Shown here piece after piece: positions 35,289-52,175 of a stretch of DNA of 64,000 bases; the stretch's first letter is position 1, and every line of letters starts with the position of its first letter. A program made the translations under genes and the position numbers. The notes under the pieces are model-generated. The model searched no databases, had not been told where the DNA came from, and saw only the letters and a program-made list of their open reading frames with translations. Origin of the DNA: Rhodoferax sp. AJA081-3 (GTDB taxonomy: Bacteria; Pseudomonadota; Gammaproteobacteria; Burkholderiales; Burkholderiaceae_C); contig NZ_CP059068.1 in assembly GCF_017798165.1 (NCBI RefSeq), positions 2,666,001 through 2,730,000 on the forward strand. The letters run 5' to 3'.

Positions 35289-35328
35289 CCAGTAAGCGGG
35301 TACTGGCAAAAGACCGCAACTGGCCCGA
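35289..35328 (-). repeat. GGGCCAGTTGCGGTC stem-loop repeat, copy 1 (minus)
   Basis: On the minus strand TTCGGGCCAGTTGCGGTC, then TTTTGCCAGTACCCGCTTACTGG. This is the only copy seen in this orientation, matching the minus-strand direction of the neighbouring genes. The preceding TCTGGAACCGACCGCAGG also matches sequence before copy 9. Confidence 0.75.
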
Positions 35329-35361
35329 ACCTGCGGTCGGTTCCAGATACAAAGCGGTCAG

Positions 35362-35448
35362 AGGCAACGTCGGAGTTGTACGGCACACAACAAGTGCCTC
35401 GGAGCGGCCTTCTTATGTTGTGTATCCGTGTCAGGCGACCTGTTAGCC
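35362..35448 (-). other. attC-like integron recombination site (87 bp)
   Basis: Read on the minus strand it opens with GGCTAAC (R''-like) containing the TAA stop of the gene at 35443. It carries CACGGA at offset 17 and closes with GCCGTACAACTCCGACGTT then GCC. The plus-strand site at 44755-44841 has the same length, the same CACGGA offset and the same closing block with one change. CACGG/CCGT can pair. The R' heptamer GTTGCCT is degenerate. Confidence 0.65.
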
Positions 35449-35736
35449 ATGCGACCCGCCCTTTCCGCCTTTCTTCAACAGCTTTTGAACGACGAGGAAC
35501 AACAGAAACCAACCGAGCCAGATGATGAAACCTCCCAGCGTGTATCCGAACTGTGTGGGTTCAAAAAAACCGTTGTTCGGTTCGCCCAACCCGCGCATGC
35601 CCAACTCATGCAGCGACCAGAGCGGCAACATCACGGCGATCAATCCAAGAATGTTGAACCCGGGAATAAACATCACCACTGCCCAAATCATGGTTACGGC
35701 TAGTGCATTCTTTGCGGCGCGAAGCATATCTTGCAT
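35443..35736 (-). CDS. Small membrane protein encoded in an attC-flanked cassette
   Basis: A 97-residue protein with two long hydrophobic helices (VTMIWAVVMFIPGFNILGLIAVMLPL and FTLGG-like FGYTLGGFIIWLGWFLLFLVVQKLL) and a basic tail KKGGKGGSHG. The ATG follows GTTAGCC directly and the stop TAA lies inside GGCTAAC, exactly as in integron gene cassettes. Function unknown. Confidence 0.65.
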   Translation of the reverse strand: MQDMLRAAKNALAVTMIWAVVMFIPGFNILGLIAVMLPLWSLHELGMRGLGEPNNGFFEPTQFGYTLGGFIIWLGWFLLFLVVQKLLKKGGKGGSHG

Positions 35737-35785
35737 GGCTAACGTCCGAGGCTACAGGCACACGACACAACACGTCACTTCGACT
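35737..35785 (-). other. Partial attC-like site
   Basis: On the minus strand GTGTTGTGTCGTGTGCCTGT leads to CTCGGACGTTAGCC, ending in a canonical core GTTAGCC (35737-35743). It resembles the right half of the site at 35362-35448. The left R'' box is not recognisable. Confidence 0.45.
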
Positions 35786-36191
35786 CCAAAGCTCCCAGTA
35801 TCTGTTCGGTCGTGACGCTCCATGGCTGCACGAGGTGGTTTACATAGTACTGTTGTTCTTTGACGTATGCGCCCAGCCCATTGAAGAAGAAGACGTATTC
35901 AGCGCCCACCTTAAATGAATCAATTCCGCAACTGGATCTACCGCTGGTGACAACCTTATCGCCCACAAACTTGCCCTTCAAAACGCGAATGGGCTGAACC
36001 TGAGCAATAGAGGCCAATGATCCTTGCTCCTGAGACAAGACACGCAAATGAACCACGACATCGGCATTGTGAAACGCGGATTGAGGCGTAGGTGGCTTCC
36101 ATCCTGGCATGGGTGAGCAGGCAAGCACCGAATACGGCATCGCTGAAAGGATTGAGACAAGGATTGCAAGCAGTCGCATATTTTTCGTCAT
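35775..36191 (-). CDS. Netrin/TIMP-like domain lipoprotein candidate
   Basis: A 138-residue exported protein. The signal ends SVLAC, a possible lipobox, followed by SPMPGW. The rest resembles small NTR-like domains: ADVVVHLRVLSQEQG, VQPIRVLKGKFVGDKVVTSGRSSCGIDSFKVGAEYVFFF. The paired cysteines probably form a disulfide. It sits at the end of a run of minus-strand cassette-like genes. Family assignment is by pattern only. Alternatives at its N-terminus include Met at codon 5. Confidence 0.55.
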   Translation of the reverse strand: MTKNMRLLAILVSILSAMPYSVLACSPMPGWKPPTPQSAFHNADVVVHLRVLSQEQGSLASIAQVQPIRVLKGKFVGDKVVTSGRSSCGIDSFKVGAEYVFFFNGLGAYVKEQQYYVNHLVQPWSVTTEQILGALESK

Positions 36192-36593
36192 GTAATGTCA
36201 AAGACCGAAACTGGGCTCCGATCTTAACTACCGCTTCCGCCCCGCTGCCGACGAAAGCCGGCGACTCTGAATTTAGACCAGTCTACTTCCCGTAAGCAGT
36301 CATACGACCAACGGACGCCGCTACATTCATTACTACGCGACTACGTGCTCGTCAACCTGGACCACCGGCTCAAGGAGCTGGGTACAACGCGCGCCGAGTT
36401 GCTGCGGATCGGCGCCGCCCCAGGGATCGGCTTTGGCGGCGTGATTCGTAACATTGCGAATCATTTGATGGGCCGGCGAAGCGCAGGCGATACCAAGGCG
36501 AAAGTGAGTTCTTAGGAAGCGATTGCCGAACGGGAGTCTGCTCGCCGCTGCACAGCGACCCATCGCGAGGCGACCGGCGCAGTGGGTCACATG
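36192..36593. other. Unassigned stretch with a possible gene remnant
   Basis: On the plus strand a frame ending at 36515 reads VNLDHRLKELGTTRAELLRI followed by GAAPGIGFGGVIRNIANHLMGRR, which looks like real protein but lacks a start. GTG at 36345 is possible. The longer antisense frame here is low complexity and unlikely. A degenerate stem-loop repeat may lie near 36204-36222 on the minus strand. Confidence 0.3.
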
Positions 36594-36620
36594 CTGACTT
36601 CCGCAAAAGACCGCTATCGG
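36594..36620 (+). repeat. GGGCCAGTTGCGGTC stem-loop repeat, copy 2 (degenerate)
   Basis: GGGTCACATGCTGACTTCCG, then CAAAAGACCGCTATCGG. The right arm is canonical and the left arm diverged. Confidence 0.5.
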
Positions 36621-36733
36621 CGACAAGACTGGGGAAAATCTAGAGTTGCCGTCTTTGCGGACACGGGGCGAAAGCAGTGCTCCAGATGGTTGGACTAGCG
36701 GGCTATAGTTGCGACTCATGACATCCAATATTC

Positions 36734-36740
36734 GTTAGAC
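36734..36740 (+). other. attC-like core GTTAGAC before GFA gene
   Basis: GTTAGAC fits the GTTRRRY core consensus and lies 37 bases before a short stand-alone gene, as in cassettes. No full attC fold was demonstrated; a 7-mer alone is weak. Confidence 0.3.
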
Positions 36741-36777
36741 GGCATCATTCACTACCGGTCCCCACGGAGAACACAAA

Positions 36778-37140: not shown

Positions 37141-37224
37141 GCATGCCCTGTGGGCCATCTTCGGACATTAGTCCGTGACCGCTTTGTCGAAGATAAAAAC
37201 GCTGACTCAGCGCCAAGCGCATGC

Positions 37225-37758: not shown

Positions 37759-38143
37759 TCGATCAACAGGTTATGGCGCTTGGGCATTACTACTCCGAGA
37801 AATTCGTTACTTTGAAACGACGCGACCATCCGCAGAATACCCGACTCCATACTCCATACTCCGTACGAAAGTACTCGTAACCCTCTTCCGTGAGACAACG
37901 GCCATCATTGTGGGCACTGTACTTTGAATCGTCAACCACCAAAAAGGTTTTTCCACATGTGCGAACCACGTCCGGGCCCGCGCAGCCACTACTGCCGCTC
38001 ACGGAGCGTTTTCAGCGACTTCGAAGGGCCAGGTGCAGTCATTGGCCAATGGCAGCTCTCTGGAAGACAATCATCCTGTCTTACACCTTGTATATGGACT
38101 CCCCCACAAGTGCAAGAAACTGGCAGGGTTGCAGTTTGAGGGC
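37759..38143. other. Intergenic region with one repeat copy
   Basis: About 385 bases with no supported gene. It contains stem-loop repeat copy 3 and CTCCATACTCCATACTCCGT, a short imperfect triplet of CTCCATA(C/T). Confidence 0.4.
38025..38063 (+). repeat. GGGCCAGTTGCGGTC stem-loop repeat, copy 3
   Basis: AGGGCCAGGTGCAGTCATTG, then GCCAATGGCAGCTCTCTGG. The tail CTCTGGAAGACAATC matches those of copies 1 and 7. Confidence 0.6.
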
Positions 38144-39838
38144 CTACACACCAAGCCAACGCTTGGCCTGACCGACGACATCGGTTAGGCATCCGTCATC
38201 AAAGGGTGAGACGAGACCAGCTCCCCGCACCAGCGACTGGAAAGGCGCCTCGCCGCCGCGGCGGCACAGCGCGACATAGTCCTCCATCGCGGCCGCTCGT
38301 TCCTTTTCAGCGCGCACCCAAAATTGCATGGCACACGTCTCGGCAAGCACGTAGTCAATGTAATAGAAGGGTGAGCCATAGATGTGGGACTGCGCCTGCC
38401 ACATGCCACCCTGGCTCGCATGCGGCATCCCGCCGTAGTTTCGCCAAGGGAGGTAGGTCTGCTCCATCTCCTTCCACATCTCACGGCGGCGCTGGGCAGT
38501 CGCATCCGGCTCGGCATATACAAGATGCTGGAAATGGTCAACCGCGACGCCATAAGGCAAAAAGGCGATTTTTGCCTGCAACTCTTGGCGACGGAAGCGG
38601 TCGGCGTCTTCTTCACCAAAAAACTGCTCCATCCACGGCCAAGTCAGGTACTCCAGACTCATCGAATGAATTTCAGCCGCGTCATAGGTCGGCCAAAAGT
38701 AGTCGGACAAGCGCTGTTTACGTGAGGAATAGTTCTGGTACGCGTGACCCATCTCGTGGGTAAAGACGGTAACGTCGGCACTGGTGCCGTTGAAATTTGC
38801 AAAAATGAAAGGTAGGCCCCACTCAGTGATGCTGGTGCAATAGCCACCACCCGCCTTGCCGTTGCGGGCCTTGAGGTCAAGCAGACCACGCTCGCGCATC
38901 TGTGCGAAGAACTCGCCCATGTCGCTGCCAAGCTCTTCAAACATTGTTTGGGCGCGCGCCACCATCCAATCGTGGTCACCTTTGGGGCGGGGGCTGCCCT
39001 GGATGTCCCAGATCTTTTCATCCCAATACATCACTTTGTCTATGCCAAGGTCCTTGGCTTGCGTTTGTTTGAGTGCAAAGGCCAGCGGTACGATGCCATC
39101 GCGAACCTGCGCGCGAAACTTGGCGACTGCCACCTGGTCGTAGTCGTTGCGCTGGCGGATGCGGTAGGCCATTTCAACGTAGTTTTTGAAACCGAGCTTT
39201 TGGGACATTGCGTGGCGCAACTTGACCAGTTCGTCATAGATCGCGTCAAGTTCGGCTACGTTGGAAGCGAACCATCCCCACTGTGCCTCGCTCGCAGCCT
39301 GCCGGGTTGCACGGTCAGCGTCCATCGCGAATGCAGCAAGGCGTGAAAGGTTGTAGCTCTCACCACGAAAGAGGATTTGGGCACCAGACTTTAATGACGT
39401 GTACTTCGAGGCCAGCTTGCTTTCGGCGACAAGGTCGGCCTCAATCTTTGGATCGAAGGTAATCACATCGTTTTCCCACAAGCGAAACGCTTGTGCACCG
39501 AACTCTGCTTCGAGCTCGGCCCGGTACGGCGACTTCAGGAGCATCTTCTTGAACTCGGTTTCAGGGCCCAGGAACTTGGGCGAAAGTTCTGACTCTCGAT
39601 CCTTGGCCGCCTTGTAGTCCTCGTTCCTGGTGTCCTGCGTGAAACGGGCGTGAACCACGCTCTGCCATGTGCCCAGCTTGATGCGCAAAGCATCCCAGCG
39701 CTTGATCGTTGCGACGCGCCCACCAGCGTCCTTTGCTGCTTCAAACGCCGCGTTTATTGTTGCGTACTCGGAGACGACGGAGTCAACGTTTGGGGTCTCA
39801 GGATTGAACGTGTCGAAGTTCGGAAGCGTGGTGTGCAT
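38144..39838 (-). CDS. M3 family oligoendopeptidase
   Basis: A 564-residue zinc metallopeptidase of the oligoendopeptidase F type. The metal site is HEMGH (about H361 to H365) in FTHEMGHAYQNYSS, with the downstream Glu in AAEIHSMSLEYLTW. It degrades short peptides in the cytoplasm. ATG at 39838 is chosen; the longer frame from 39982 adds 48 residues unlike the family. This is an ordinary full-length enzyme embedded among short orphan genes. Confidence 0.9.
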   Translation of the reverse strand: MHTTLPNFDTFNPETPNVDSVVSEYATINAAFEAAKDAGGRVATIKRWDALRIKLGTWQSVVHARFTQDTRNEDYKAAKDRESELSPKFLGPETEFKKMLLKSPYRAELEAEFGAQAFRLWENDVITFDPKIEADLVAESKLASKYTSLKSGAQILFRGESYNLSRLAAFAMDADRATRQAASEAQWGWFASNVAELDAIYDELVKLRHAMSQKLGFKNYVEMAYRIRQRNDYDQVAVAKFRAQVRDGIVPLAFALKQTQAKDLGIDKVMYWDEKIWDIQGSPRPKGDHDWMVARAQTMFEELGSDMGEFFAQMRERGLLDLKARNGKAGGGYCTSITEWGLPFIFANFNGTSADVTVFTHEMGHAYQNYSSRKQRLSDYFWPTYDAAEIHSMSLEYLTWPWMEQFFGEEDADRFRRQELQAKIAFLPYGVAVDHFQHLVYAEPDATAQRRREMWKEMEQTYLPWRNYGGMPHASQGGMWQAQSHIYGSPFYYIDYVLAETCAMQFWVRAEKERAAAMEDYVALCRRGGEAPFQSLVRGAGLVSPFDDGCLTDVVGQAKRWLGV

Positions 39839-40006
39839 GCGTGCCTTTGTTCTGCGGGAACGTGAAATGGTACGCCATGTACTCAAGTCACGATGCAGGT
39901 CGCGTTTGGGCCACCTGCAGCCATTGGCGAAGGACTTCAGGTGGGGCGTACGTTGACAGAGGTCGGCTATATTCTTCCGCATTCCAACATCAGATGAGTT
40001 CGTTGA

Positions 40007-40518: not shown

Positions 40519-40692
40519 TTAGTTAGAGTAGGGCCACTTGCAGACTTTCACGAACGACTGGTATCGGGTACCATTACTGCAACCATTCAGGTCCCAAGAC
40601 AACTTTATGCACCGCGCCGCCTGGCCCCCTTTGACGAACCGCTGAACGCATAACGCCACCTTGCACTCGCTGCAGGCGGCCACGTGCATTAA
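40519..40692 (-). CDS. Possible small Cys-rich protein
   Basis: A 57-residue frame, MHVAACSECKVALCVQRFVK and onward, with six cysteines (CSEC, C, C, C, C). It overlaps stem-loop copy 4 at its 3' end, which weighs against it. No signal peptide if begun at this Met; the open frame reaches 40839. Low confidence, kept because cysteine spacing looks non-random. Confidence 0.2.
   Translation of the reverse strand, partial: LMHVAACSECKVALCVQRFVKGGQAARCIKLSWDLNGCSNGTRYQSFVKVCKWPYSN
40531..40568 (+). repeat. GGGCCAGTTGCGGTC stem-loop repeat, copy 4
   Basis: GGGCCACTTGCAGACTTTCA, then CGAACGACTGGTATCGGG. It resembles copy 9 at 44334 in its right arm (GACTGGTATC). Confidence 0.7.
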
Positions 40693-40804
40693 AGCGCCAG
40701 TACGGTAGTAATCCGCACTGGCAATACCCCTTTGCCCCAACCTTTTCGGTCCCTTTTGTCGGCCGGGTTGAGGCTGTTCGTCTTCCGTTCTCTTGGATAC
40801 CCAC

Positions 40805-41713
40805 ATGCAACTCTTCAATTCCGTGGTGGCGCACGCCATCCCCTGGATTCCCCGCGCGCTCGTGCAAAAAATGGCCCGCCGCTACATCGCCGGCGACGAC
40901 ATCAACGCTGCCGTCAAGCGTCTACAGCAACTTCAAACGCAGGGGTTTTGCGCGACCATCGACGTTCTCGGCGAAACAGCCGCCACGCCGGCTCAAGCTC
41001 ACAATACTGCAGCCGAATACCTGCGGGTTCTCGACGCCATCCACACCTACGGGCTCCATGCCAGCATCTCAGTCAAGCCCACGGCAATGGGTCTCTTGTT
41101 GGACGAGGACCTATGCGAGCGGTTGTTGACTGAAATTCTGCAATCAGCCTGTCGCATCGGGGCGTCGGTGTGTATGGATATGGAAGATGTGCGTTGCACA
41201 CAAATGCAGATTGATCTATTTCAACGGCTGCAGGCTCACCACAGTGACTTCGGCCTTGCCTTGCAAGCCTACCTGCGGCGTACCTATCAGGACATTGAAT
41301 CCCTGGCGCACGCACGCAACACGCTGCGTCTGTGCAAGGGCATTTACCGCGAAGAGGCCGCCCACCTGGTGGACAACGCGGGTCGAGACCGCAACGCGAT
41401 CAACCCGCACTTTCTCGCACACCTGGCGCGCTGCTTTGATGCTGGATGCTTCGTGGCCATTGCCACCCACGACGCGGCTCTGATTGACCAAGCGGTCGCG
41501 CTGGCGCACAGTCGTGGCATAGACCGCTCCCGCTTTGAGTTCCAGATGCTACTGGGCGTTAGTGAGTCCTTGCGCGATCGCCTACTGGTGCAAGGCTTCG
41601 GTGTCCGAATCTATGTTCCGTTCGGGAAAGACTGGTATGGCTATAGCACGCGCCGGCTGAAGGAGAACCCCCGCATTGCCGGACATGTGCTGCGGGCAAT
41701 GCTGCAGCGCTGA
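40805..41713 (+). CDS. Proline dehydrogenase (monofunctional)
   Basis: A 302-residue FAD-dependent proline dehydrogenase, oxidising proline to pyrroline-5-carboxylate. Family motifs: SVKPTAMGL, VCMDMEDVRCTQMQIDLF, LQAYLRRTYQDIESL, RLCKGIYRE and the C-terminal RIYVPFGKDWYGYSTRRLKENP that contacts proline and FAD. Monofunctional enzymes of this length are usual in Gram-positives; many beta-proteobacteria carry the large PutA instead. No P5C dehydrogenase gene is adjacent. A TTG at 40793 is an alternative start; ATG 40805 is preferred. Confidence 0.9.
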   Translation: MQLFNSVVAHAIPWIPRALVQKMARRYIAGDDINAAVKRLQQLQTQGFCATIDVLGETAATPAQAHNTAAEYLRVLDAIHTYGLHASISVKPTAMGLLLDEDLCERLLTEILQSACRIGASVCMDMEDVRCTQMQIDLFQRLQAHHSDFGLALQAYLRRTYQDIESLAHARNTLRLCKGIYREEAAHLVDNAGRDRNAINPHFLAHLARCFDAGCFVAIATHDAALIDQAVALAHSRGIDRSRFEFQMLLGVSESLRDRLLVQGFGVRIYVPFGKDWYGYSTRRLKENPRIAGHVLRAMLQR

Positions 41714-42132
41714 TCACCACAAGGGGGGCTACAGCAGGGCCATGGTGCACAAGAGCGGTGGCCTAGCAGCGATTGAAACGCCGGTGTCATATGAACTTGT
41801 GCCAACGAACGTTTGCATAGTCGCTAATCGCTCGTCGTTCGCGAGAGCAATTAGCGCAATATCAGCTTGGAATATCGACCTTTCCTTCTGAGCAACGAGT
41901 TTCGCATTCGTCAGGAGGGGGCCACTTGCGGTCCTCTCACAATGACTGCTTTGAGTTGTTTCATTGGCTACGCGGCACGACCGGCTGCTGCCGGGTTGTC
42001 AGATCACTGCCTGACAAGGTTTGCAAAGCAACTGCCCGCAATGCCGTTGGCCATCACTTTGGCGATGTCGCAGTAGAAATCACACGCCGCCGTTAGACGA
42101 ACCGTTCCGCATGAGACGTGAGGGCCATCAAC
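41714..42132. other. Intergenic region with repeat and attC-like core
   Basis: No supported gene in about 420 bases. It contains stem-loop copy 5 (41919-41955) and ACACGCCGCCGTTAGAC (ending 42097), which resembles the right end of the attC-like site at 44755-44841. Confidence 0.4.
41919..41955 (+). repeat. GGGCCAGTTGCGGTC stem-loop repeat, copy 5
   Basis: GGGCCACTTGCGGTCCTCTC, then ACAATGACTGCTTTGAG. GCGGTC/GACTGC pairs with one G-U. Confidence 0.75.
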
Positions 42133-42444
42133 ATGAGCAAACCTTGGGTCGAACGTAGCGGAGGTATTTGGCTTAGCAGAGCACAAACGTTCGATAAGCT
42201 CCTGGTTGAGGAATACGACCAGGAGCACGATGCATTCATATTGATCTGGCAACGCGCATCTGACGGACACTTCCAAGTCGAGTATCTGGTCAAGGGAAAA
42301 GAGCACCGTGATCCACAGTGGTCATTGCCATTCTGGGGCAACATCGCTGGCCAGGGAATTTATGGGACACTAGCTGATGCAAACGCAGACTTGAATGCAA
42401 TTGCCAAAGAGCACCACCGAAAAGTCGCTGATGCCCAACAATAG
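42133..42444 (+). CDS. Hypothetical protein, 103 aa, cassette-like
   Basis: A 103-residue soluble protein (MSKPWVERSGGIWLSRAQTF; VEYLVKGKEHRDPQWSLPFW) with an alternating strand/helix pattern. Not recognised. A GTTAGAC core lies 35 bases upstream, and GCCCAAC, matching the R'' consensus RYYYAAC, overlaps the end of the gene. Both fit a cassette origin. Confidence 0.6.
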   Translation: MSKPWVERSGGIWLSRAQTFDKLLVEEYDQEHDAFILIWQRASDGHFQVEYLVKGKEHRDPQWSLPFWGNIAGQGIYGTLADANADLNAIAKEHHRKVADAQQ

Positions 42445-42507: not shown

Positions 42508-42544
42508 GGGCCAGTTGCGGTAGTGGCCAGCGACCGCTATTGGG
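42508..42544 (+). repeat. GGGCCAGTTGCGGTC stem-loop repeat, copy 6
   Basis: GGGCCAGTTGCGGTAGTGGC, then CAGCGACCGCTATTGGG. Preceded by TCTGGAAGCGACCTCGGGTTC, which matches the upstream context of copies 1 and 10. Confidence 0.8.
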
Positions 42545-42622
42545 ATGATCCCGGCTGCGCCAATCTACTTCGTGGCGGGGCTATAGTGACCGGTTGAGTG
42601 TTCAATTTTTCAAAAGTATCCA

Positions 42623-43000
42623 ATGAAGAGTCTGCTTGTCTGTGCAGTTGAGCCATACAGCCCCGGAGATGGTGCCGACGTTACCCTGCGAAGCGACAAG
42701 GCTGAAATTGTTGTCTTATGCTATCCCTGCGGGCTAGTTGTGGGTGACACAGTTGAAAATAGACTGTCGATTCTGAGCGGTAATGTTCATTCCGCATACC
42801 TCTCCGATTGGCCGGAAGAGGACAAAGTCTTGCGTTCCCATCACAAGCTTGAGCGCGTTGGCAACTACGCCTATCGTGGGGTCGGTCAGGTGGTGAATCA
42901 CGCAGAGGGGCTTGTGGACGTCCTCGGATTTGTTATTGATTTTGGTAGCGTCCCGTGCGATGGAGCAGTTGAGTTCGAGGTCAGCCGCGTTGACATATGA
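42623..43000 (+). CDS. Hypothetical protein, 125 aa
   Basis: A 125-residue soluble protein (MKSLLVCAVEPYSPGDGADV; LVDVLGFVIDFGSVPCDGAVEFEV). Not recognised. The all-beta look and lack of signal resemble small immunity- or cassette-encoded proteins. GGGGCTATAGTG lies 35 bases upstream of the start, a motif also seen before the GFA and DUF2007 genes. Confidence 0.55.
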   Translation: MKSLLVCAVEPYSPGDGADVTLRSDKAEIVVLCYPCGLVVGDTVENRLSILSGNVHSAYLSDWPEEDKVLRSHHKLERVGNYAYRGVGQVVNHAEGLVDVLGFVIDFGSVPCDGAVEFEVSRVDI

Positions 43001-43025: not shown

Positions 43026-43053
43026 GGGCCAGGTGCGGACTTTGGTCAATGCC
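43026..43053 (+). repeat. GGGCCAGTTGCGGTC stem-loop repeat, copy 7
   Basis: GGGCCAGGTGCGGACTTTGG, then TCAATGCCCGCTTTTGGAAG. It begins 25 bases after the preceding stop codon. Confidence 0.65.
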
Positions 43054-43325
43054 CGCTTTTGGAAGACAATTCCGCAGTCAAATTGCTATTTTTTTGAGGT
43101 GCTTCGCCGTAAGTGGCGAGCTCCGATTCGCGCTGAAGTTAATCTGCCTCACGCCAACAGGGTGAAAATGACTTCACTTTCTTTGCGAAATGGCTGCGAA
43201 TCAAGCCTTTGTGCGCCTTGCTGTCGTCTGCGTGATGAGCATTGGCAAGGGAAATTTGGCTCTATCCCGTCGGATATCCTAGGAGCCCAGGATATCCGCC
43301 ATCTACATCACGTTGGGCAAAGAAC

Positions 43326-43922: not shown

Positions 43923-43990
43923 ACTATTAACAAGTCCTCTCGTGCGCTGAAGCTGCTTGCCTAGGGCTGAACTGTCATTACAGCCGGACC

Positions 43991-44029
43991 GGGCCAGTTG
44001 CGGTAGTAAACCAACGACCGCTCTGAGGC
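43991..44029 (+). repeat. GGGCCAGTTGCGGTC stem-loop repeat, copy 8
   Basis: GGGCCAGTTGCGGTAGTAAA, then CCAACGACCGCTCTGAGG. Lies at the edge of the 181-bp duplication. Confidence 0.85.
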
Positions 44030-44072
44030 TCACCATCGGCAAAATCTAGTGCAGCGAATGCTCCCAGTCTGT

Positions 44073-44170
44073 CTACTGATAGTGAATGGCGTTAGGTTTC
44101 TGAAATTTACAGCAGGCTTCAAGTACCTTCTCTGCTGCAGCGGGATTTACGTGGTTAAGTCCCGAACCCA
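44073..44170 (-). pseudogene. 3' fragment of the DUF2846-type lipoprotein gene
   Basis: It encodes SGLNHVNPAAAEKVLEACCK and the same terminus NAIHYQ as the intact gene at 51489-52010. The rest of the gene is absent; beyond 44170 the frame enters unrelated sequence. Confidence 0.85.
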
Positions 44171-44286: not shown

Positions 44287-44333
44287 CCAGTTGAACTGCT
44301 TGTCCAATCTTTTGTCATTGTCATTTCTGCCAC

Positions 44334-44371
44334 GGGCCAATTGCATTCTTTCGTGAATGACTGGTATCAGG
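44334..44371 (+). repeat. GGGCCAGTTGCGGTC stem-loop repeat, copy 9
   Basis: GGGCCAATTGCATTCTTTCG, then TGAATGACTGGTATCAGG. It lies 48 bases before a GTG-started cassette gene. Confidence 0.7.
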
Positions 44372-44418
44372 AAGTAGACTGAGGTTACCTAGAGCATTCC
44401 GCATTTGAAAAGTGGGTT

Positions 44419-44760: not shown

Positions 44761-44841
44761 CAAGTTGTTCGTCACGGACATGCAGTCGCAGAATACCGCT
44801 GCGCGGCGTATACTGCCCGCCGTACAACGCCGACGTTAAAT
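44755..44841 (+). other. attC-like integron recombination site (87 bp)
   Basis: R'' GTTTAAC (44755-44761) and R' GTTAAAT (44835-44841) both fit the consensus and pair. An inner palindrome ATACCGC/GCGGCGTAT lies at the centre. CACGGA and GCCGTACAACGCCGACGTT occupy the same offsets as in the minus-strand site at 35362-35448. Confidence 0.75.
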
Positions 44842-44846
44842 TTCAA

Positions 44847-45161
44847 ATGAAGCGTATTAAAAATGCGGTAGCTTTGAATCCGCTTGTGGGCACTTGGAAA
44901 TGCGGTGACGGCTTTTCTGATTTGGAAATCAGCGTCCAATTCAAAGGCGACATCCCGAGCGTTTCGGTAGTAGACAAGTACGACGACGAGGCCCCACAAG
45001 TTTTTGAAGTACTGTGGGACGCAGAAAAGGGAATCTTGAGCTTTGGAACTCTGTGGTCTACCGGTCGTTTCGTAAAGTACTCTTTCATGTCGTCGCCCAT
45101 TGTGGGCCGCGCCGGTGTCACGTTTTCTTATACCGATCAAGAGTTGTGGGTGCGTCAATGA
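44847..45161 (+). CDS. Hypothetical protein, 104 aa, cassette-encoded
   Basis: A 104-residue lipocalin-like small protein: LNPLVGTWKCGDGFSDLEISVQF, VSVVDKYDDEAPQVFEVLWD, GRAGVTFSYTDQELWVRQ. Such short beta-sandwich proteins with GTWKC openings are frequent in cassettes. The start lies 5 bases after the R' core of the upstream site. The longer frame that reads through the attC site was rejected. Confidence 0.65.
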   Translation: MKRIKNAVALNPLVGTWKCGDGFSDLEISVQFKGDIPSVSVVDKYDDEAPQVFEVLWDAEKGILSFGTLWSTGRFVKYSFMSSPIVGRAGVTFSYTDQELWVRQ

Positions 45162-45249
45162 AATTTGAGATTTCGCTCGGCGCGGACACGCAGCAGCAGG
45201 ATGCCGCTGCGCTGCAAGTGCTGCGTGCTGGGCAGCTTTGACGTTATGC
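45162..45249 (+). other. attC-like integron recombination site
   Basis: It ends in GTTATGC (45243-45249). The inner stem CACGCAGCA/TGCTGCGTG is a perfect 9-bp pair. The R'' box next to the gene stop is not clear. Confidence 0.55.
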
Positions 45250-45611
45250 CTCATAGAAGCGCCCCGATCTGGCGGCAACTGGGTAGCGCCTCTGGCCGTC
45301 GCCGGAGTTCTCCATCCAAGCTGCAAATCGAAAACCCACTAAAGCGTAGGCGTTCTTTCTGGAGTCGCCTCACCAAGCCTGAGCTTCGTTTGCTCATGGC
45401 GGGGTTGGCAAATTGGGAACGACGTTCACGCGGCCCTACTCGTTCCCGTGTACGGCGCAAGCGCTTGGATGCAGTGGAGTATTACGGCCGCAGGTTTGGC
45501 GCTCTCGCGAGTGAGCGCCTTTGGGCGAGTCCGAGGACAAGCGGCAGGGCACTACCTACACACAATCCACGGAGTGAGAACGCTAGAGGAGTGTTGTGGC
45601 ATGAGGCATAA
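45246..45611 (+). CDS. Basic hypothetical protein, 121 aa, cassette-encoded
   Basis: A 121-residue Arg/Ser-rich protein (RRRSFWSRLTKPELRLLMAGL; TRSRVRRKRLDAVEYYGRRF). The ATG is inside GTTATGC and the TAA is inside GCATAAC, so the frame fits exactly between two recombination cores. That fit supports a real cassette although the low-complexity sequence would otherwise look doubtful. Function unknown. Confidence 0.5.
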   Translation: MPHRSAPIWRQLGSASGRRRSSPSKLQIENPLKRRRSFWSRLTKPELRLLMAGLANWERRSRGPTRSRVRRKRLDAVEYYGRRFGALASERLWASPRTSGRALPTHNPRSENARGVLWHEA

Positions 45612-45706
45612 CATGTTCGTCGATTGGACCAACAACAGCGCGCCGCGCGCTTGCGATTCTTCACAATTGAGCGCGCTGTTGTATTCCACTCGCGGCCGAC
45701 TTTAAA
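45606..45706 (+). other. attC-like integron recombination site (about 100 bp)
   Basis: Opens with GCATAAC (45606-45612). A strong inner stem CAACAGCGCGC pairs with GCGCGCTGTTG (around 45634-45682). The right core is degenerate (CTTTAAAC). Confidence 0.6.
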
Positions 45707-45721
45707 CCGCACAGACGAGCA

Positions 45722-45868
45722 ATGAGGTACTACTGCACTTTCTTCCTGCGGTCCGACGACAGGGATGCACCGTCGAAGATATTGCTTTCCGACGTCGTCG
45801 ATGCGCTCGACTTCGATGACAACCAGTCTGCGACTAGGTTAACCTCCAACGCTAAATCTGCATTTTGA
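45722..45868 (+). CDS. Short ORF after attC, possibly truncated cassette gene
   Basis: A 48-residue frame, MRYYCTFFLRSDDRDAPSKI to NAKSAF, starting shortly after the site above. It may be the 5' part of a decayed cassette gene. The downstream sequence contains ACCGCTATTGTCTGGAACAG and repeat copy 10. Confidence 0.35.
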   Translation: MRYYCTFFLRSDDRDAPSKILLSDVVDALDFDDNQSATRLTSNAKSAF

Positions 45869-45925
45869 GCGACTGCTTTGGAGCTCCGCCCTTGACCGCT
45901 ATTGTCTGGAACAGACCGCAGGTTC

Positions 45926-45962
45926 GGGCCACTTGCAGTCTTGGGCGAATGTCCGCTGCCAG
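45926..45962 (+). repeat. GGGCCAGTTGCGGTC stem-loop repeat, copy 10
   Basis: GGGCCACTTGCAGTCTTGGG, then CGAATGTCCGCTGCCAG. The preceding TCTGGAACAGACCGCAGGTTC matches copy 1 upstream. Confidence 0.75.
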
Positions 45963-46159
45963 GAGCTGAGGCAAGAGCCTTGAGTCGGACGGAATCAGCT
46001 TACCGCACCGTTGGCAGAGAGTTACAGCGAGCCAATCTGTTTCGTCAATAATTGCTGGGGCATCGAATATTCGATCGAAACCGCGTAGGCTTCAGGCCGG
46101 ACGCCGTCTCCCACTCCGAACGATGCCAGTTCTTCAACAACAATAACAAAGACAAAACC

Positions 46160-47139: not shown

Positions 47140-47176
47140 GGGCCAGTTGCAGTCGATTACAGATGACTGTTATGAG
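47140..47176 (+). repeat. GGGCCAGTTGCGGTC stem-loop repeat, copy 11
   Basis: GGGCCAGTTGCAGTCGATTA, then CAGATGACTGTTATGAGG. GCAGTC/GACTGT keeps the stem with a changed base pair, which supports selection for pairing. Confidence 0.8.
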
Positions 47177-47244
47177 GCACAGAGTTGATAGACTACGCTG
47201 AAGCGACAGCGGTAATAGAGAGTTGAATTGACTAGAAGGACGCT

Positions 47245-47829
47245 ATGGGACTTTGGGAAAAGCTGTTCAAGCGCAATGGCAACGATGTCGATGAGACAAG
47301 TTGGGCCGGTATTTTGGCAAACTCTGTTGAAACGCATGGTGCGGTCACAACTGTTAAAGACGGGGGAACAGTTGTGAAAGAAATTCGTGGAAAGGAGTTT
47401 TTTGGCCCGGCGGCTGAATGCCAAGACTTCGAGGCCGTGACCAGTCTCCTAAGGGATGTTGTTGACGAAGATGCCAAGAAATCCGTAGTGGCGTTTGGCA
47501 TGTTGATGGCGGCCAATTCAACAGAAGGCGGCGTTTACCGCAAGGACGCATTAGCAGTTCTTACCAAGCTCGCGTTTGCGAAGGCGGAACTGGACTCGAC
47601 TATCTGTCATACACATCCAACAATTGACGTTACGGCTGATATCCTGTCACAGGCGCAGGAGTTTGCTGATCGAAACACTATTCCGTGCAACGAATGGCCA
47701 ACTTCAGAGGAAGTCGTCGCAAACGTATTGGAAAACGCGATGAAATATACCCAGGTGAAGGAGTGGAGAAGGCACACTTATAGCGCCAACGGGTTGGTGA
47801 TTGGCGTAGAAGCCTTTAGCAAAACTTAG
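47245..47829 (+). CDS. Hypothetical protein, 194 aa
   Basis: A 194-residue soluble protein (MGLWEKLFKRNGNDVDETSW; VTSLLRDVVDEDAKKSVVAFGMLMAANS; ANVLENAMKYTQVKEWRRHTY). Mostly helical. Not recognised. Followed after 37 bases by a stem-loop repeat. Confidence 0.6.
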   Translation: MGLWEKLFKRNGNDVDETSWAGILANSVETHGAVTTVKDGGTVVKEIRGKEFFGPAAECQDFEAVTSLLRDVVDEDAKKSVVAFGMLMAANSTEGGVYRKDALAVLTKLAFAKAELDSTICHTHPTIDVTADILSQAQEFADRNTIPCNEWPTSEEVVANVLENAMKYTQVKEWRRHTYSANGLVIGVEAFSKT

Positions 47830-47866
47830 GACGTTGATTGGGCTTTTTGGAAACGATCGCTGGTCT

Positions 47867-47903
47867 GGGCCAATTGCCGTCGTTGGTGAATGTCCTAAGT
47901 CGG
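47867..47903 (+). repeat. GGGCCAGTTGCGGTC stem-loop repeat, copy 12
   Basis: GGGCCAATTGCCGTCGTTGG, then TGAATGTCCTAAGTCGGG. Preceded by TTGGAAACGATCGCTGGTC, related to the TCTGGAA context of other copies. Confidence 0.65.
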
Positions 47904-47947
47904 GCGGTAGACTGAGTCAGTTTCAAACCAATTGCGACACCAACTTC

Positions 47948-48181
47948 ATGTCAATCCAACCCGCCCCTGTGTTTTGTAGTGAGGCCTGCGCTAATGCAGA
48001 CACTGTCCGATCATTTGGAGAATGTCCCGACTGTAGGAAGAGCTGGGATGGCGGTGGCGGGGGCAACTGGGACCACTACAGAAACAACGCTTGGGCAGTT
48101 TGCAACACGTGTTCAAGGGCCCAGAACCGATGCGCGCGATGTGGCAAAGACGCTTCTGGCTTAGGAATCAACGGTGCTTGA
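47948..48181 (+). CDS. Small zinc-ribbon-like protein
   Basis: A 77-residue Cys-rich protein: FCSEAC, ECPDC, VCNTCS, CARCG, likely two zinc-binding ribbons with a Gly-rich spacer (DGGGGGNW). ATG 47948 is chosen because an earlier in-frame start would include the stem-loop repeat. It overlaps the next gene by 8 bases. Confidence 0.55.
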   Translation: MSIQPAPVFCSEACANADTVRSFGECPDCRKSWDGGGGGNWDHYRNNAWAVCNTCSRAQNRCARCGKDASGLGINGA

Positions 48182-48695
48182 TCGCTTTCGTCGAGTCCGC
48201 GAGCCGTATCGTGGACTGCTAATTGCTTTGGCCACTTTCATCGTGCTAATGGCAAGCAATACCTGGCCGAGCCTGAGCTATGCAATCTGGGGTCTATTTG
48301 TTGCCACTATGGCGGCGATGCTTTACGGAGACCTTCGGGAACCTGTTAACTATGAGTCGATGCGGATATCGGATGGAGCCATCGAATACGTTGCCTTTGG
48401 CCAAACGACCCTAGTCCGACTGGACAAAGTTTCAAAGCTGGAGTTCGTACGCGAAGAGGCACTCTTTCCAGATATTGATGGGCCATACCGTGAGACAAAG
48501 TGGGTGGTGCAGTACGGTGGTGGCCTTCGGGTTGAAATCATGGATGAGTGGCCGCACCGACGAGCATTGCTCCAGGCATTCAGGAAGCACTTACCAAAAT
48601 TCGATGATCAAGCAGCCCGAGGTGGTATCGCGGCACGGAGGGAAGGCCAGTGGCTTTGCTACGAGTTAAAAGCTGATGAAAAGTTATGCGTTTGA
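48174..48695 (+). CDS. Membrane protein with C-terminal PH-like domain
   Basis: A 173-residue protein with two transmembrane helices (YRGLLIALATFIVLMASNTW and LSYAIWGLFVATMAAMLYG), then a small beta-rich domain (MRISDGAIEYVAFGQTTLVRLDKVSKLEF). GTG start overlapping the zinc-ribbon gene. Not recognised by family. Confidence 0.6.
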   Translation: MLDRFRRVREPYRGLLIALATFIVLMASNTWPSLSYAIWGLFVATMAAMLYGDLREPVNYESMRISDGAIEYVAFGQTTLVRLDKVSKLEFVREEALFPDIDGPYRETKWVVQYGGGLRVEIMDEWPHRRALLQAFRKHLPKFDDQAARGGIAARREGQWLCYELKADEKLCV

Positions 48696-49195
48696 TGCGC
48701 AGATATGAGTTCAAGTACGAGGGATTCGAAGTGGCAAAACTATCAGACGAAATTCATTCCGAAATACAGCGTCTTTGTGCGACGGGAGATGAACTCGCTA
48801 AGGCAAGAAGATTTGCCGATGCGATCCCCATGTATTGGACTGCCTGGGATCTGTTGCCAGAACCCAAAACAGACTGGAGTGCGGCCCTTTGGATTCTGGC
48901 TGCGATTGGCGATGCAAATTTTCTAGGGGGTGATTACGTCGCCGGCCGGGACAACTTGTCTCAAGCAATGCATTGTCCAGGTGCAATAGGGAACCCATTT
49001 GTGCATATGCGCCTTGGGCAATGCCAGTTCGAACTCAACGCCGTAGATCGCGCTGCTGACGAGCTAATGAGAGCCTATATGGGTGCTGGGCCGGACATAT
49101 TCAAAGACGAAAACCCACGCTATCTGGCCTTTCTAAAGACCAAGGCAAAAGACATAGAGACACCAAAAAAGCCATGGCAGTTTTGGAAGAGGTGA
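48686..49195 (+). CDS. TPR-like helical protein
   Basis: A 169-residue helical protein resembling tetratricopeptide repeats: ELAKARRFADAIPMYWTAWDLLPEP, ALWILAAIGDANFLGGDYVAGRDNLSQAM, MRLGQCQFELNAVDRAADELMRAYMGAG. It ends PKKPWQFWKR. Similar proteins often accompany polymorphic toxins as immunity proteins, but no toxin lies nearby. It overlaps the gene upstream by 10 bases; a later start (MRRYEF or in VAKL) is possible. Confidence 0.6.
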   Translation: MRLMRRYEFKYEGFEVAKLSDEIHSEIQRLCATGDELAKARRFADAIPMYWTAWDLLPEPKTDWSAALWILAAIGDANFLGGDYVAGRDNLSQAMHCPGAIGNPFVHMRLGQCQFELNAVDRAADELMRAYMGAGPDIFKDENPRYLAFLKTKAKDIETPKKPWQFWKR

Positions 49196-49219
49196 TTCGA
49201 AAGAAATGGGAGAGACTAA

Positions 49220-49825
49220 GTGTTTCCAAGTCACTACGAATGCAGCAGCTGCCGTGAGAAATTCCAATTCGGCTTCACTGAAGTACGCTACTATCTAGGT
49301 GGCGACTCAGCCACTGCTTCTGTCCGGGATGAAGACACCCTCTTGGCGCCTGTTCGCCCAGCATGGTGCAAGGATTGCGAAGTCGTCACCGTTGTCGAGG
49401 ACATCCAATCAGTGCGGGCCTTTGAAGACGCCTATGGCGCTGTTAGGGGTGGACACCCGGTCGACTATCCGTTCGGAACTGAGTTCATGGATACAGCCGG
49501 GGCCATAGAGTTTGTAGGGAGGTACCTACGTTGGAGGATGGCTCGCCAACATACTCCAAGGGCACTTTGCTGCGGTAGATCGAACTTTCAATTCCTAGAC
49601 GTTGCACAGCCGCTGCTTAAGCATGCTGAATGTGACTTCGGCTTCATTGAGCCTCTGTACTCCATTTCTCCATACTGTGGGCCTGGTCCCGGCATTCTTG
49701 GTCCAGCGAACATTCGTCTCTACAGCGCAGAGGGAGTGCTTGTTGGCCTGCTTACTTGGCGAAACCGTGATGACGAAAGATGGGATGTCCAGAGTCTCAG
49801 CTACGGGCAGGTGATAGTTGAGTAA
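49220..49825 (+). CDS. Hypothetical protein with N-terminal zinc ribbon, 201 aa
   Basis: A 201-residue protein. Candidate metal site CSSCREKF and CKDCEVV near the N-terminus, further Cys in LCCGRSNFQF, and a beta-rich end. GTG start 24 bases after the TPR gene, so part of the 47.9-49.8 kb operon-like set. Not recognised. Confidence 0.6.
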   Translation: MFPSHYECSSCREKFQFGFTEVRYYLGGDSATASVRDEDTLLAPVRPAWCKDCEVVTVVEDIQSVRAFEDAYGAVRGGHPVDYPFGTEFMDTAGAIEFVGRYLRWRMARQHTPRALCCGRSNFQFLDVAQPLLKHAECDFGFIEPLYSISPYCGPGPGILGPANIRLYSAEGVLVGLLTWRNRDDERWDVQSLSYGQVIVE

Positions 49826-49910
49826 ATAGTAATCGGAGGGCTTAGGCTCCCTTATCAGCGGGAGGCTGTCACTGCTTGTTTGTCAGCCTTGACATTTACT
49901 GAGGCAATAG

Positions 49911-50267
49911 ATGAGTTACTACACGAGATTGGAACTGAGCTGGGATGATGGCGACTACGCCGCCGGTGACATGACACCGGAGGCGGTGCTTTTGGCAGCA
50001 AGGCCGTTCGTTGTTGCGAGCGACTGGGGGGTTGAAGACGTTCTTTCCGACTTAAGGGAGTCCGCCGAAGGAAACGGTCTTGACCGTCAGGGATACAACC
50101 GTATCGTCGCATTCGACTTAATCGAACTCATCGCCACAGTTTCTCGTGCCTATCCTGATGTGACGTTCTACGCTCGCGGAGTTGGTGAGGAGTACTTTGA
50201 TACATGGGCAAGACACTTCCGCGGTGGAGCAGTGTTGTGGGAATTCGGCCCGTTCGATCCTGACTGA
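49911..50267 (+). CDS. Hypothetical protein, 118 aa
   Basis: A 118-residue acidic soluble protein (MSYYTRLELSWDDGDYAAGD; VTFYARGVGEEYFDTWARHF; VLWEFGPFDPD). It has the look of small cassette or immunity proteins of the type with Y-T-R-L-E-L starts. Not recognised. Confidence 0.55.
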   Translation: MSYYTRLELSWDDGDYAAGDMTPEAVLLAARPFVVASDWGVEDVLSDLRESAEGNGLDRQGYNRIVAFDLIELIATVSRAYPDVTFYARGVGEEYFDTWARHFRGGAVLWEFGPFDPD

Positions 50268-50348
50268 CTTCAGATGGAGAAAGTGCCCCGTCTAAGTTCG
50301 TAAAACTGTGGGCTATAGTTCCGTAACATTCTCGCTCTTGAACTCGCT

Positions 50349-50768
50349 GTGGACCAAGTCATTGCATTTACCGTCGTTGAAGTCCACCTGAGCCCTTGGG
50401 AGGCTCATGTTGCACGAGCACTGCTGGAGTCAGAGGGCATTCGGGCCTATCTGGGTAGTGAGCACGTTGTGGCGGCGTGGTGGCCGATGTCATTGGGTTT
50501 TGGCGGCGTTCGCTTGCTTGTCCGTCGTGAGCATGCTGATCAAGCGCATGCTGTTCTGAATTTGCGTGATCGAGGCGAGCTTGAAGCTGCGTTGATTGAG
50601 GCATATCCACCGGACGTCGTCCAGTGCTCGCATTGTGGATCTGGGCAGTTCGTAGAGTGCCGCAGTTGGCCCGCTATCTCACTTGCATTCATGCTGCTAT
50701 TTGTCGGCCGCGCCATCTTTCCACCAGCGAAGGATTTTCGATGCCAGTCCTGCGGTCAATTGAGATGA
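50349..50768 (+). CDS. DUF2007-like protein with zinc ribbon
   Basis: A 139-residue protein. The N-terminal DUF2007-type domain has VHLSPWEAHVARALLESEGIRAYLGSEHVV and GGVRLLVRREHADQAHAVL. The C-terminal half has CSHCGSGQF, one hydrophobic segment and CQSCGQ. GTG start; GGGCTATAGTT lies 29 bases upstream. Signal-transduction roles proposed for the family are unproven. Confidence 0.75.
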   Translation: MDQVIAFTVVEVHLSPWEAHVARALLESEGIRAYLGSEHVVAAWWPMSLGFGGVRLLVRREHADQAHAVLNLRDRGELEAALIEAYPPDVVQCSHCGSGQFVECRSWPAISLAFMLLFVGRAIFPPAKDFRCQSCGQLR

Positions 50769-50780
50769 TCCGTGAGCTTC

Positions 50781-50817
50781 GGGCCAAGTGCTGACATCGA
50801 CGAATGACCGCAATCGG
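50781..50817 (+). repeat. GGGCCAGTTGCGGTC stem-loop repeat, copy 13
   Basis: GGGCCAAGTGCTGACATCGA, then CGAATGACCGCAATCGG. It starts 12 bases after the preceding stop codon. Confidence 0.7.
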
Positions 50818-50923
50818 TATGCAAGTTGATCAGGTGCCTGGAGGCAGAAGTTGCTACTCTTCGTGTCGATGCTCTAGCTAATATAGTTGTCACCCTCGAC
50901 GTCAACTATTTGTCGCACCTTCT

Positions 50924-51334
50924 ATGAGTTTTCGATCACTTGATACGCTGTATTCCCTAGCCAAATCGGGCGAAGAGCCCGTTTTTATCGCCCACCTTCT
51001 GGAGCTGGAGTCAATGTACCCGGGAGATCAGGACCTGCAGAACTGGGCTCTTATAGCGGCGGCCGAAGAGAACCGTATCGAGATTGTCGAATCATTGCTG
51101 AAGAGAGGCGCAAACATCGAGGGCGCGTCAGAACGGCCTTGGATTCGGCCACTCTGGAAAGCCGCGAAAAAGGGTAATTTGGCGATGGTCGAACTACTTC
51201 TGAACAATGGAGCAAACATCCATGCTACCGATAACTCGGGAATGAGCGCTCTGGACTATGCGAGGAGGTACTCACGCGCCGATGTGGCGAATCTCCTAGA
51301 GGTTCGCAATCGTGAGATCGACCAGAACATTTGA
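50924..51334 (+). CDS. Ankyrin repeat protein
   Basis: A 136-residue protein with about three ankyrin repeats: NWALIAAAEENRIEIVESLLKRGANIEG, PLWKAAKKGNLAMVELLLNNGANIHATDN, SALDYARRYSRADVANLLEVR. A protein-binding scaffold without enzyme motif. Followed by repeat copy 14. Confidence 0.85.
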   Translation: MSFRSLDTLYSLAKSGEEPVFIAHLLELESMYPGDQDLQNWALIAAAEENRIEIVESLLKRGANIEGASERPWIRPLWKAAKKGNLAMVELLLNNGANIHATDNSGMSALDYARRYSRADVANLLEVRNREIDQNI

Positions 51335-51405
51335 GGCGGCACTTGATAAAACTGTCGCCCTGGTGTTCATTCAGCGTCGGCAGTATTTTGTGGCTACCGC
51401 GGCTA

Positions 51406-51586
51406 CGGGCCAGTTGCGGTAGTAAACCAACGACCGCTCTGAGGCTCACCATCGGCAAAATCTAGTGCAGCGAATGCTCCCAGTCTGTCTACTGATAGTG
51501 AATGGCGTTAGGTTTCTGAAATTTACAGCAGGCTTCAAGTACCTTCTCTGCTGCAGCGGGATTTACGTGGTTAAGTCCCGAACCCA
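51406..51586. repeat. 181-bp direct duplication, right copy
   Basis: Identical by eye to 43990-44170, 7416 bases apart. Here it contains the 3' end of the intact lipoprotein gene and stem-loop copy 14. This copy is the likely source. Confidence 0.9.
51407..51445 (+). repeat. GGGCCAGTTGCGGTC stem-loop repeat, copy 14
   Basis: Same sequence as copy 8 since both lie in the 181-bp duplication. Confidence 0.85.
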
Positions 51587-52010
51587 TCTGAACATTAAAC
51601 TCTTGCATCGTTACTCCGCTACCGCCACCCAAGGTAGCTCCCGTGAACTTAGACATTCCGGTCAGCTCAATAAAGTAGGTTGTCGCTGGCTTCAGGTTTA
51701 GCGATATCAGCGAGTCCCTTTGGCCTGACAGGCCAGCCCACACTGCCCGAATTTCCGTTGTCCCCGGAGCTACTGTGGCCCACGTGTAACCATTTTGATT
51801 GAGGCTCGTGACTTCGGTGCCGTTGATCTTGATCGTGGTCCCAAATGCCGTTGGCTCAGCGTACTTTCGAAAAATGTACACAGTTGATCGGTCCGACTGT
51901 AGGGTTTTCGCCTTACTTTCCGAGTAGCTTGGGCCTTGTGCAACGGTCGCGCAAGCCGTCACAGAAAAGACGAAGGCTGAGACGATGGCAAATCGAAGAA
52001 ATGACTGCAT
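51489..52010 (-). CDS. DUF2846-like lipoprotein
   Basis: A 173-residue lipoprotein. Lipobox in FVFSVTAC, then a DUF2846-type domain: SDRSTVYIFRKYAEPTAFGTTIKINGTEV, NGYTWATVAPGTTEIRA, SLISLNLKPATTYFIELTG. ATG at 52010 fits the lipoprotein signal; the open frame reaches 52073. It is the only minus-strand gene in the 40-52 kb stretch. Its 3' end is duplicated at 43990-44170. Confidence 0.75.
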   Translation of the reverse strand: MQSFLRFAIVSAFVFSVTACATVAQGPSYSESKAKTLQSDRSTVYIFRKYAEPTAFGTTIKINGTEVTSLNQNGYTWATVAPGTTEIRAVWAGLSGQRDSLISLNLKPATTYFIELTGMSKFTGATLGGGSGVTMQEFNVQMGSGLNHVNPAAAEKVLEACCKFQKPNAIHYQ

Positions 52011-52138
52011 AAATGGTTTTCGCTTGAAAGGGTACTGTGATGAAGCGCCCAGTGTAAGTGTTGAATTTGGCAAATCTACTGTAGTTGCCAGTTCCAGTTT
52101 GAACGCTTGCTGCAGTTTCTGCTGATGGAGACCGTAGG

Positions 52139-52175
52139 GGGCCAGTTGCGGTCATTGTCGAATAACCGCAATCAG
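52139..52175 (+). repeat. GGGCCAGTTGCGGTC stem-loop repeat, copy 15
   Basis: GGGCCAGTTGCGGTCATTGT, then CGAATAACCGCAATCAGG. The last copy; the accessory region ends near here. Confidence 0.8.

Follow-up and report, generated by a model that had tools for sequence, protein, structure and literature searches.

Cassette arrays are one of the chief ways in which bacteria store and trade small accessory genes. Integron cassette arrays without a nearby integrase occur, and the DNA invertases of the FimB/FimE type are small tyrosine recombinases. Acinetobacter plasmids carry dif/pdif modules, which, in the partial accounts available, are gene modules bounded by short tyrosine-recombinase core sites, with XerC/XerD and dif-type sites, and are shuffled between replicons. 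RIT, BIM, GInt and SE elements are mobile elements or islands run by tyrosine recombinases; in the excerpts available, RITs are trios, BIMs have a second protein and GInts have four genes (PMC3414803, PMC8138268). Here we analyze a stretch of 64,000 nucleotides (the window) of Rhodoferax sp. AJA081-3, positions 2,666,001-2,730,000 of its 5.17-Mb, single-contig chromosome, in which a short repeat with the constant motif GGGCCA lies between small genes. Homologies break at this motif and whole units are shared between species with unrelated flanks, which identifies the repeat as a recombination junction with GGGCCA at its centre. We consider it probable that a site-specific recombination system uses the repeat as its core site to join gene units, with a 207-aa tyrosine recombinase as the likely catalyst and the array of the window stranded. 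The system looks like a gene-cassette system, not an integron.

Like integron arrays, the arrays described here consist mostly of single-gene units in one orientation. Unlike them, they come with no integrase over the cut-off in the genome, no attC consensus, no convincing covarying fold and another breakpoint. The dif/pdif modules, as far as those accounts go, resemble them in their bounded, exchangeable units, but the sites here have a GGGCCA centre with GACCGC-type arms and a third arm, neighbouring sites mostly point the same way, most of the arrays examined lie on chromosomes, and the candidate recombinase is a protein of its own, of 207 aa. In the available part of its source, the inverted repeat of fimS reads TTGGGGCCA (PMC9820224), which resembles the centre TTTGGGCCA of the sites here; FimB/FimE-type invertases flip a promoter segment, however, whereas here units are exchanged (PMC9820224, PMC6083910). 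The NCBIfam model for tyrosine-type DNA invertases gave the 207-aa protein 23 bits against a cut-off of 222 bits. None of the RIT, BIM, GInt and SE elements is described in those excerpts as a single-gene array at GGGCCA (PMC3414803, PMC8138268). The simple group of the 2021 tyrosine recombinase classification, as the excerpt defines it, combines a core-binding and a catalytic domain, and the 207-aa protein, with no core-binding domain, does not fit it (PMC8138268). We found no description of a GGGCCA-type array in the open-licence papers searched, which does not prove its absence from print; a text search for core fragments (four 9-mers) gave no paper on such a system, by title, among the matches listed.

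An initial set of 35 sequences showed numerous homologies starting or stopping at the first G of GGGCCA. The junction test was performed on 122 sequences (1.26 Mb and 230 sites, with the window included), a chosen part of the loci from which L083 was left out. One best homology was kept for each pair of sites, with both anchors agreeing within 30 bp; homologies starting more than 15 bp beyond the anchor were omitted, and short or other pairs were counted apart. This count supersedes an earlier and looser one, which admitted starts up to 95 bp inside the unit (128 head, 18 tail, 2 crossing and 26 other). There were 123 homology-linked pairs. The homology starts no more than 15 bp from the first G in 78 of them and stops no more than 15 bp from it in 11; in a further 11 it stops inside the repeat, and 21 pairs were classed as short or other. 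When the anchors were shifted upstream by 500, 300 or 150 bp, the homology crossed the anchor in 13 of 14, 14 of 14 and 14 of 17 pairs, and with shifts of 150, 300 or 500 bp downstream in 75 of 94, 60 of 76 and 61 of 61 (79-100% over all shifts). The head pairs represent 17 unit families and the tail pairs 7 and 10. Homology upstream of the site stops within 15 bp of the junction at 18 sites and inside the repeat at 21 (the two sets may overlap), so that both ends of gene units can be precise. Breaks of this kind are the product of a recombination junction or of the end of an element, and not of an ordinary repeat.

Two units are shared precisely from site to site: one of 1.9 kb, whose longest open reading frame (ORF) is aldo/keto reductase-like by eye, is common to genomes G020 and G287, and one of 0.73 kb to G264 and G272. 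Each unit is present in two species, and the 1 kb on either side is without homology (best E 0.41). G003 also has the 0.73-kb unit, as far as the following GGGCCA, and G022 has it truncated by the contig end. At an orthologous locus with flanks about 88% identical, G020 carries 4756 bp with two sites and G277 an unalignable 1450 bp with one site; the common left flank comes to an end 28 and about 6 bp short of GGGCCA, and a variant core, CCGCTTYGGGTCG, marks the start of the right one. The first G020 unit at this locus turns up again in G001 in different surroundings, where the likeness starts at GGGCCA and homology is lost after the gene. A sequence-only reading of the window had proposed, among other possibilities, a recombination-site family that builds gene arrays, to be checked by the presence or absence of gene-plus-repeat units between strains. 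Both the breaks at GGGCCA, where homologies between species mostly begin or end, and the units by which species differ give this proposal good support.

Within the window, a search for GGGCCAGTTGCGGTC with up to 3 mismatches returned 18 matches, 14 of them within 35-52 kb, against 4.2 expected (100 shuffles, largest 10). The repeat family is thus real, as had been claimed: 14 of the 15 copies listed earlier align, with 11 invariant columns that include GGGCCA and TGC, and the plus orientation is common to all of the 15 but one. The constant part is GGGCCA..TGC, and the second half, GAATGACCGCTATCGGG, is far more variable (5 matches at up to 3 mismatches). An ungapped position-weight scan (score of at least 18) placed 16 copies in the window, all between 35326 and 52139; the reversed-sequence control over all 122 sequences gave 0 matches. 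The copy at 42508, which the ungapped scan missed for its 1-base gap, is a real 17th copy. The earlier list needed some repair: the first base of its minus-strand copy is 35326, the copy put at 36594 starts at 36584, and the sites at 37152 and, weakly, 39908 had been overlooked. The sites, with the genes and segments tied to them, are as follows.

35282..35326, minus strand: leftmost junction site of the cluster and its sole minus-strand copy
36584..36621, plus strand: degenerate junction site, GGGTCACATGCTGAC / GGGTCACATGC..., given earlier as 36594
37152..37196, plus strand: junction site GGGCCATCTTCGGACATTAGTCCGTGACCGC, absent from the earlier list
38026..38070, plus strand: junction site before the M3-family peptidase gene (alignment)
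38144..39982, minus strand: M3-family peptidase gene behind site 38026; true start probably near 39840, by eye
39908..39945, plus strand: weak junction site (position-weight scan)
40531..40575, plus strand: junction site; the next unit holds a proline dehydrogenase-like gene (40793-41713)
41919..41957, plus strand: junction site; ORF 42118-42444 in the next unit
42508..42546, plus strand: junction site with a 1-base gap; ORF 42623-43000 in the next unit
43026..43064, plus strand: junction site; ORF 43242-43922 in the next unit
43991..44029, plus strand: junction site heading a 343-bp unit without a listed ORF
43990..44170, plus strand: 181-bp segment, 100% identical to 51406-51586, the identity starting one base before GGGCCA
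44334..44371, plus strand: junction site (alignment)
45926..45970, plus strand: junction site, its upstream tail common with 35326 (homology from -33 to +16)
47140..47177, plus strand: junction site; ORF 47245-47829 in the next unit
47867..47904, plus strand: junction site; the next 2.9-kb stretch has at least 5 ORFs
50781..50818, plus strand: junction site; ORF 50924-51334 in the next unit
51407..51445, plus strand: junction site heading a unit whose first 180 bp recur at 43990
51406..51586, plus strand: duplicate of 43990-44170, with no mismatch
52139..52176, plus strand: last junction site, right end of the array (alignment and scan)

The stretches between sites usually carry one gene or gene pair, judged from a hand-picked part of the ORF list; the exceptions are 47867-50781 (at least 5 ORFs) and 43991-44334 (no ORF). 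Across the 122-sequence set, neighbouring sites less than 4 kb apart have the same orientation in 80 of 100 pairs. The peptidase gene of the window is shared with another species, G284, where it also stands behind its own copy of the site. The DNA homology begins at 38121, the DNA upstream of the site is unlike, and an insertion or deletion separates site and gene. This unit fits a junction at the repeat, less sharply than does the duplicate at 43990 and 51406. The G+C content is 53.8% in 35.3-52.2 kb and 60.8% in the window outside 33-53 kb. The gene flanking the array on the left is present in 57 of 61 genus genomes and the one on the right in this genome only; collinearity with the fetched relatives ends at 32.1 kb. 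Just left of the array, at 33881-34567, lies a Mutator-family transposase (PF00872), with about half of the profile matched.

We then considered the anatomy of the site. Over 65 copies, the information content runs from GGGCCA (95-100% per column) through TGC-G and TT to the arm AATGACCGCT-T; the left arm is weaker, at positions -7 to -3, and the right and third arms are well conserved. Taken as double-stranded DNA, the core would consist of a degenerate left arm, GACCGCTTT, the constant centre GGGCCA and a right arm, GTTGCGGTCATT, and a third arm, GAATGACCGCTTTC, following the right one would give rise to the apparent stem-loop. Covariation of the arms had earlier been taken as a sign that a fold is selected, a claim that finds no support here. 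RNAalifold found no pair in 14 copies, and a 9-bp hairpin is 74.2% paired over the 65 copies, but column shuffles reach that pairing in 62 of 500 trials and its covariation score in 19 of 500. At gathering scores, Rfam had no match in the window. We therefore rejected the stem as a selected RNA or single-strand fold, in view of the RNAalifold result and of a covariation that is unconvincing overall and missing where the left arm is compared with the right.

A second, variant core (TTGGGTCGAC) stands about 20 bp before GGGCCA in several left flanks (L116 at 9771 and 17005, L113 at 17964, L128 at 2609) and is also the right border at the L115/L314 locus. By eye, repeated GTTTCCACGTGGAAAC palindromes were seen beside the recombinase locus L134, upstream of its site at 7266.

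A search for tyrosine recombinases in six repeat-bearing genomes showed that two small ones adjoin repeats. The candidate enzyme is a 207-aa tyrosine recombinase that has a catalytic domain and no core-binding domain. Among solved structures, its profile aligns with nothing but C-terminal portions of XerH and XerD, and it scores far below the cut-off of the NCBIfam recombinase models. The catalytic R...K...HxxR...H...Y residues are all kept in 29 of 32 aligned rows; the others have one changed histidine (R for the first in L142, Q for the last in L185 and L193). Among 13 copies of the gene in site-bearing loci, a site lies 77-97 bp after the last codon in 11 and 173 bp after it in one, and all 12 sites point into the gene. 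As these 13 copies had been picked by their sites, loci fetched by the protein provide the more telling comparison. Of the 34 copies in these loci, 17 (12 of the 25 outside the genus) are followed within 120 bp by a half-site that scores over the 95% control level, where control windows give 5% by construction (Mann-Whitney p 4.7e-5). The count excludes fragments of the gene (alignments that end before residue 200), duplicates and loci in which fewer than 120 bp follow the gene; rows L199 and L202, listed under pattern-fetched loci, are the same genes as the protein-fetched L170 and L188, and two copies each come from six genomes. In several distant genera the half-site reads like GGCCANAAGCGGACATT, and in G089 it is a near-perfect palindrome. 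Taken together, these features make the 207-aa protein the likely catalyst at GGGCCA sites, as judged from gene position and sequence. As a marker, the exact GGCCANAAGCGGACATT core was too strict, being found in 5 of 200 genomes.

The recombinase family is large, with at least 8000 proteins at E <= 1e-20, and is named 'integrase' or the like only, where it is named at all. It is found in 21 of 200 phylum genomes (E <= 1e-30), in 399 of 72,556 plasmid records and in 3 of 50,697 phage records. If its role is confirmed, this family would gain a function and a searchable site, and the 207-aa protein would be a compact site-specific recombinase with a defined core. On a Pseudomonas plasmid (L353), the small recombinase gene comes after a phosphonate-uptake/ptxD group and the gene of a LysR-type regulator and is itself followed by a GGCC half-site; there it may help to move whole operons. 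In the Rhodoferax chromosome, two outward-pointing repeat copies enclose the gene of a tyrosine recombinase of 304 aa, which shares about 30% identity with the 207-aa protein (L017 3885-6501, about 2.072-2.0745 Mb). We take this region to resemble an IS91-type element with an integrase. Pieces similar to it are present at 0.208 and 1.12 Mb, where the repeat model has no match.

We propose that DNA units of mostly one gene each are joined at the GGGCCA centre, with each site made up of a left arm from the preceding unit and a right arm plus 'hairpin' from the following one. Strand exchange at GGGCCA would insert, remove or swap units, and such exchange would therefore produce arrays of unrelated genes mostly in one orientation. 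The 207-aa recombinase, encoded beside such sites in relatives, would catalyze the exchange, and the window would hold an array stranded without its enzyme; on the best reading, it was left so much like integron arrays without an integrase. From the sequences we infer that the recombinase performs the reaction and that the arms are its binding half-sites, and we place the exact points of cleavage and the circular intermediates on the same footing.

Several results weigh against this proposal. Part of the invariance of GGGCCA comes from the scans themselves, which give this motif weight. Two of the 123 homology-linked pairs cross the junction. The homology of the 0.73-kb unit is left by G020 (L115) 47 bp before the next site, and a 3-kb unit of L115/L116 stops 214-280 bp short of the site at its right end. 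Pairing of the left with the right arm equals that of shuffles (56.3 vs 56.4%), and a register slid by 3 is as high (58.2%). That the arms do not covary nevertheless speaks for the proposal, since half-sites bound by a protein would be expected to behave in this way and a selected fold would not. With regard to the enzyme, one of the 13 gene copies is a fragment, L336 has no fitting site and the set had been chosen by sites; the other half of the protein-fetched copies lack a half-site. Three of the 5 genomes with the exact core have the recombinase gene (p 0.009), a result that rests on those 5 genomes. The Rhodoferax genome analyzed here has no close copy of the recombinase, its best relatives being about 30% identical and of another type. 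Across 37 genus genomes, sites occur in 5 of 9 with the recombinase and in 8 of 28 without it, which is not significant (p 0.14), and with a better site model in 6 of 9 and 15 of 28. Finally, copies are dispersed in some complete genomes (G267, G270). The sequence-only reading would have taken scattered copies, without variation in units, as the mark of an ordinary interspersed repeat; the outcome is mixed, as the copies are dispersed in those genomes, yet the presence and absence of units between species is clear.

The main rival explanation, which we regard as unlikely though well ahead of the others, is that GGGCCA and the hairpin form one end of small insertion elements, and that the gene units are one-ended or composite insertions rather than circular cassettes. 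The recombinase gene would lie between unlike ends, GGGCAC...TGGCCC, and 102-bp copies would be non-autonomous. Inward-facing sites at both gene ends in the recombinase loci L283, L100 and L093 argue for it, as do inward pairs about 102 bp apart in 7 loci and some gene units that are precise at the left end and ragged at the right. These arguments are countered by the two gene units shared precisely from site to site, in the same orientation and with unrelated flanks, and by the upstream homologies that stop at or inside the repeat. Two inverted ends are thus present at the three recombinase loci and in the 102-bp pairs and absent for the units shared from site to site. The earlier suggestion of a miniature inverted-repeat transposable element (MITE) is accordingly borne out in part, by the pairs in relatives, but not for those gene units. 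The insertion-element explanation and the cassette proposal may describe the same system, seen from two sides.

The inward pairs are at L312 3972-4073, L300 3676-3777, L326 2652-2753, L309 901-1002, L306 3948-4049, L341 3969-4070 and L273 290-391. They look like a MITE-like minimal element, mostly with one GGGCCA and one GGGCAC end, and most have arm-like half-sites outside, by eye.

Far less probable is that the array is an attC cluster without an integrase, in which the repeat is a passenger or a decayed attC. The mostly single-gene units in one orientation fit integron cassettes, and there is one strict attC-like site, GTTTAAC...GTTAAAT (87 bp, 44755-44841). This site lies inside the unit 44334-45926 and is the sole one in 33-53 kb, as found with a home-made rule and not an attC finder (shuffled control mean 0.25, largest 4). 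The breakpoints, however, are at GGGCCA and not at GTTRRRY, the repeat has neither an R/L box consensus nor convincing stem covariation, and the integron integrase model TIGR02249 has 12 loose matches in the genome, none over its 265-bit cut-off (best 100.4). Membership in the integrons was therefore rejected on the integrase, on attC sites at the unit borders and on the crossover point; nor is the earlier suggestion of a decayed attC supported, since the motif of the repeat is not GTTRRRY/RYYYAAC.

Equally remote is an ordinary interspersed repeat, either REP-like or a terminator of transcription, that accumulates in the spaces between genes. Although the copies are intergenic and follow stop codons, are dispersed in some genomes and have a hairpin-like consensus, the controlled comparison shows homologies between species breaking off at a single point of the repeat, and none of the 21 intrinsic terminator-like hits (G+C-rich stem and T-run; 19.5 expected) falls on a copy, which also leaves the earlier terminator suggestion unsupported.

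We finally determined how far the repeat extends beyond the window. A sequence model built from 14 copies located two more clusters of 4 copies each on the same chromosome, one at 2.068-2.0745 Mb and the other, with 2 weak copies, at 3.683-3.686 Mb, besides strays, so that the family is region-specific, as first described, within the window (the scan found none outside 35.3-52.2 kb) but not on the chromosome. The 65-copy model (E <= 0.001) has matches in 57 of 103 genus genomes and in 67 of 299 genomes of a family sample, this genome included in both. A search of this genome and its relatives with a repeat model, which had been suggested earlier, thus shows a family not confined to the region. 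Because of this spread, the repeat is a family trait of these bacteria, clustered in places and single in others. Software built on attC or the integron integrase would be expected to miss these arrays. At even chances, in our estimate, they represent a third natural cassette system beside integrons and dif modules, in which a family of at least 8000 recombinases without a core-binding domain would act on GGCC-centred, partly palindromic, double-stranded cores, and single-gene arrays would be built, shuffled and spread across the chromosomes and plasmids of Pseudomonadota. Because the central GGCC is palindromic, one type of site could, on this view, serve insertion, deletion and inversion.

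A pattern search of genome contigs gave 22 stretches, of which 8 are, by eye, Rhodoferax or other beta-proteobacterial contigs with the usual surroundings of the repeat; the other 14, from varied taxa, may be chance matches. The region L108 8660-10675 contains many internal copies spaced about 150 bp apart (64-70% identical in blastn self-matches) and probably encodes a long repetitive protein.

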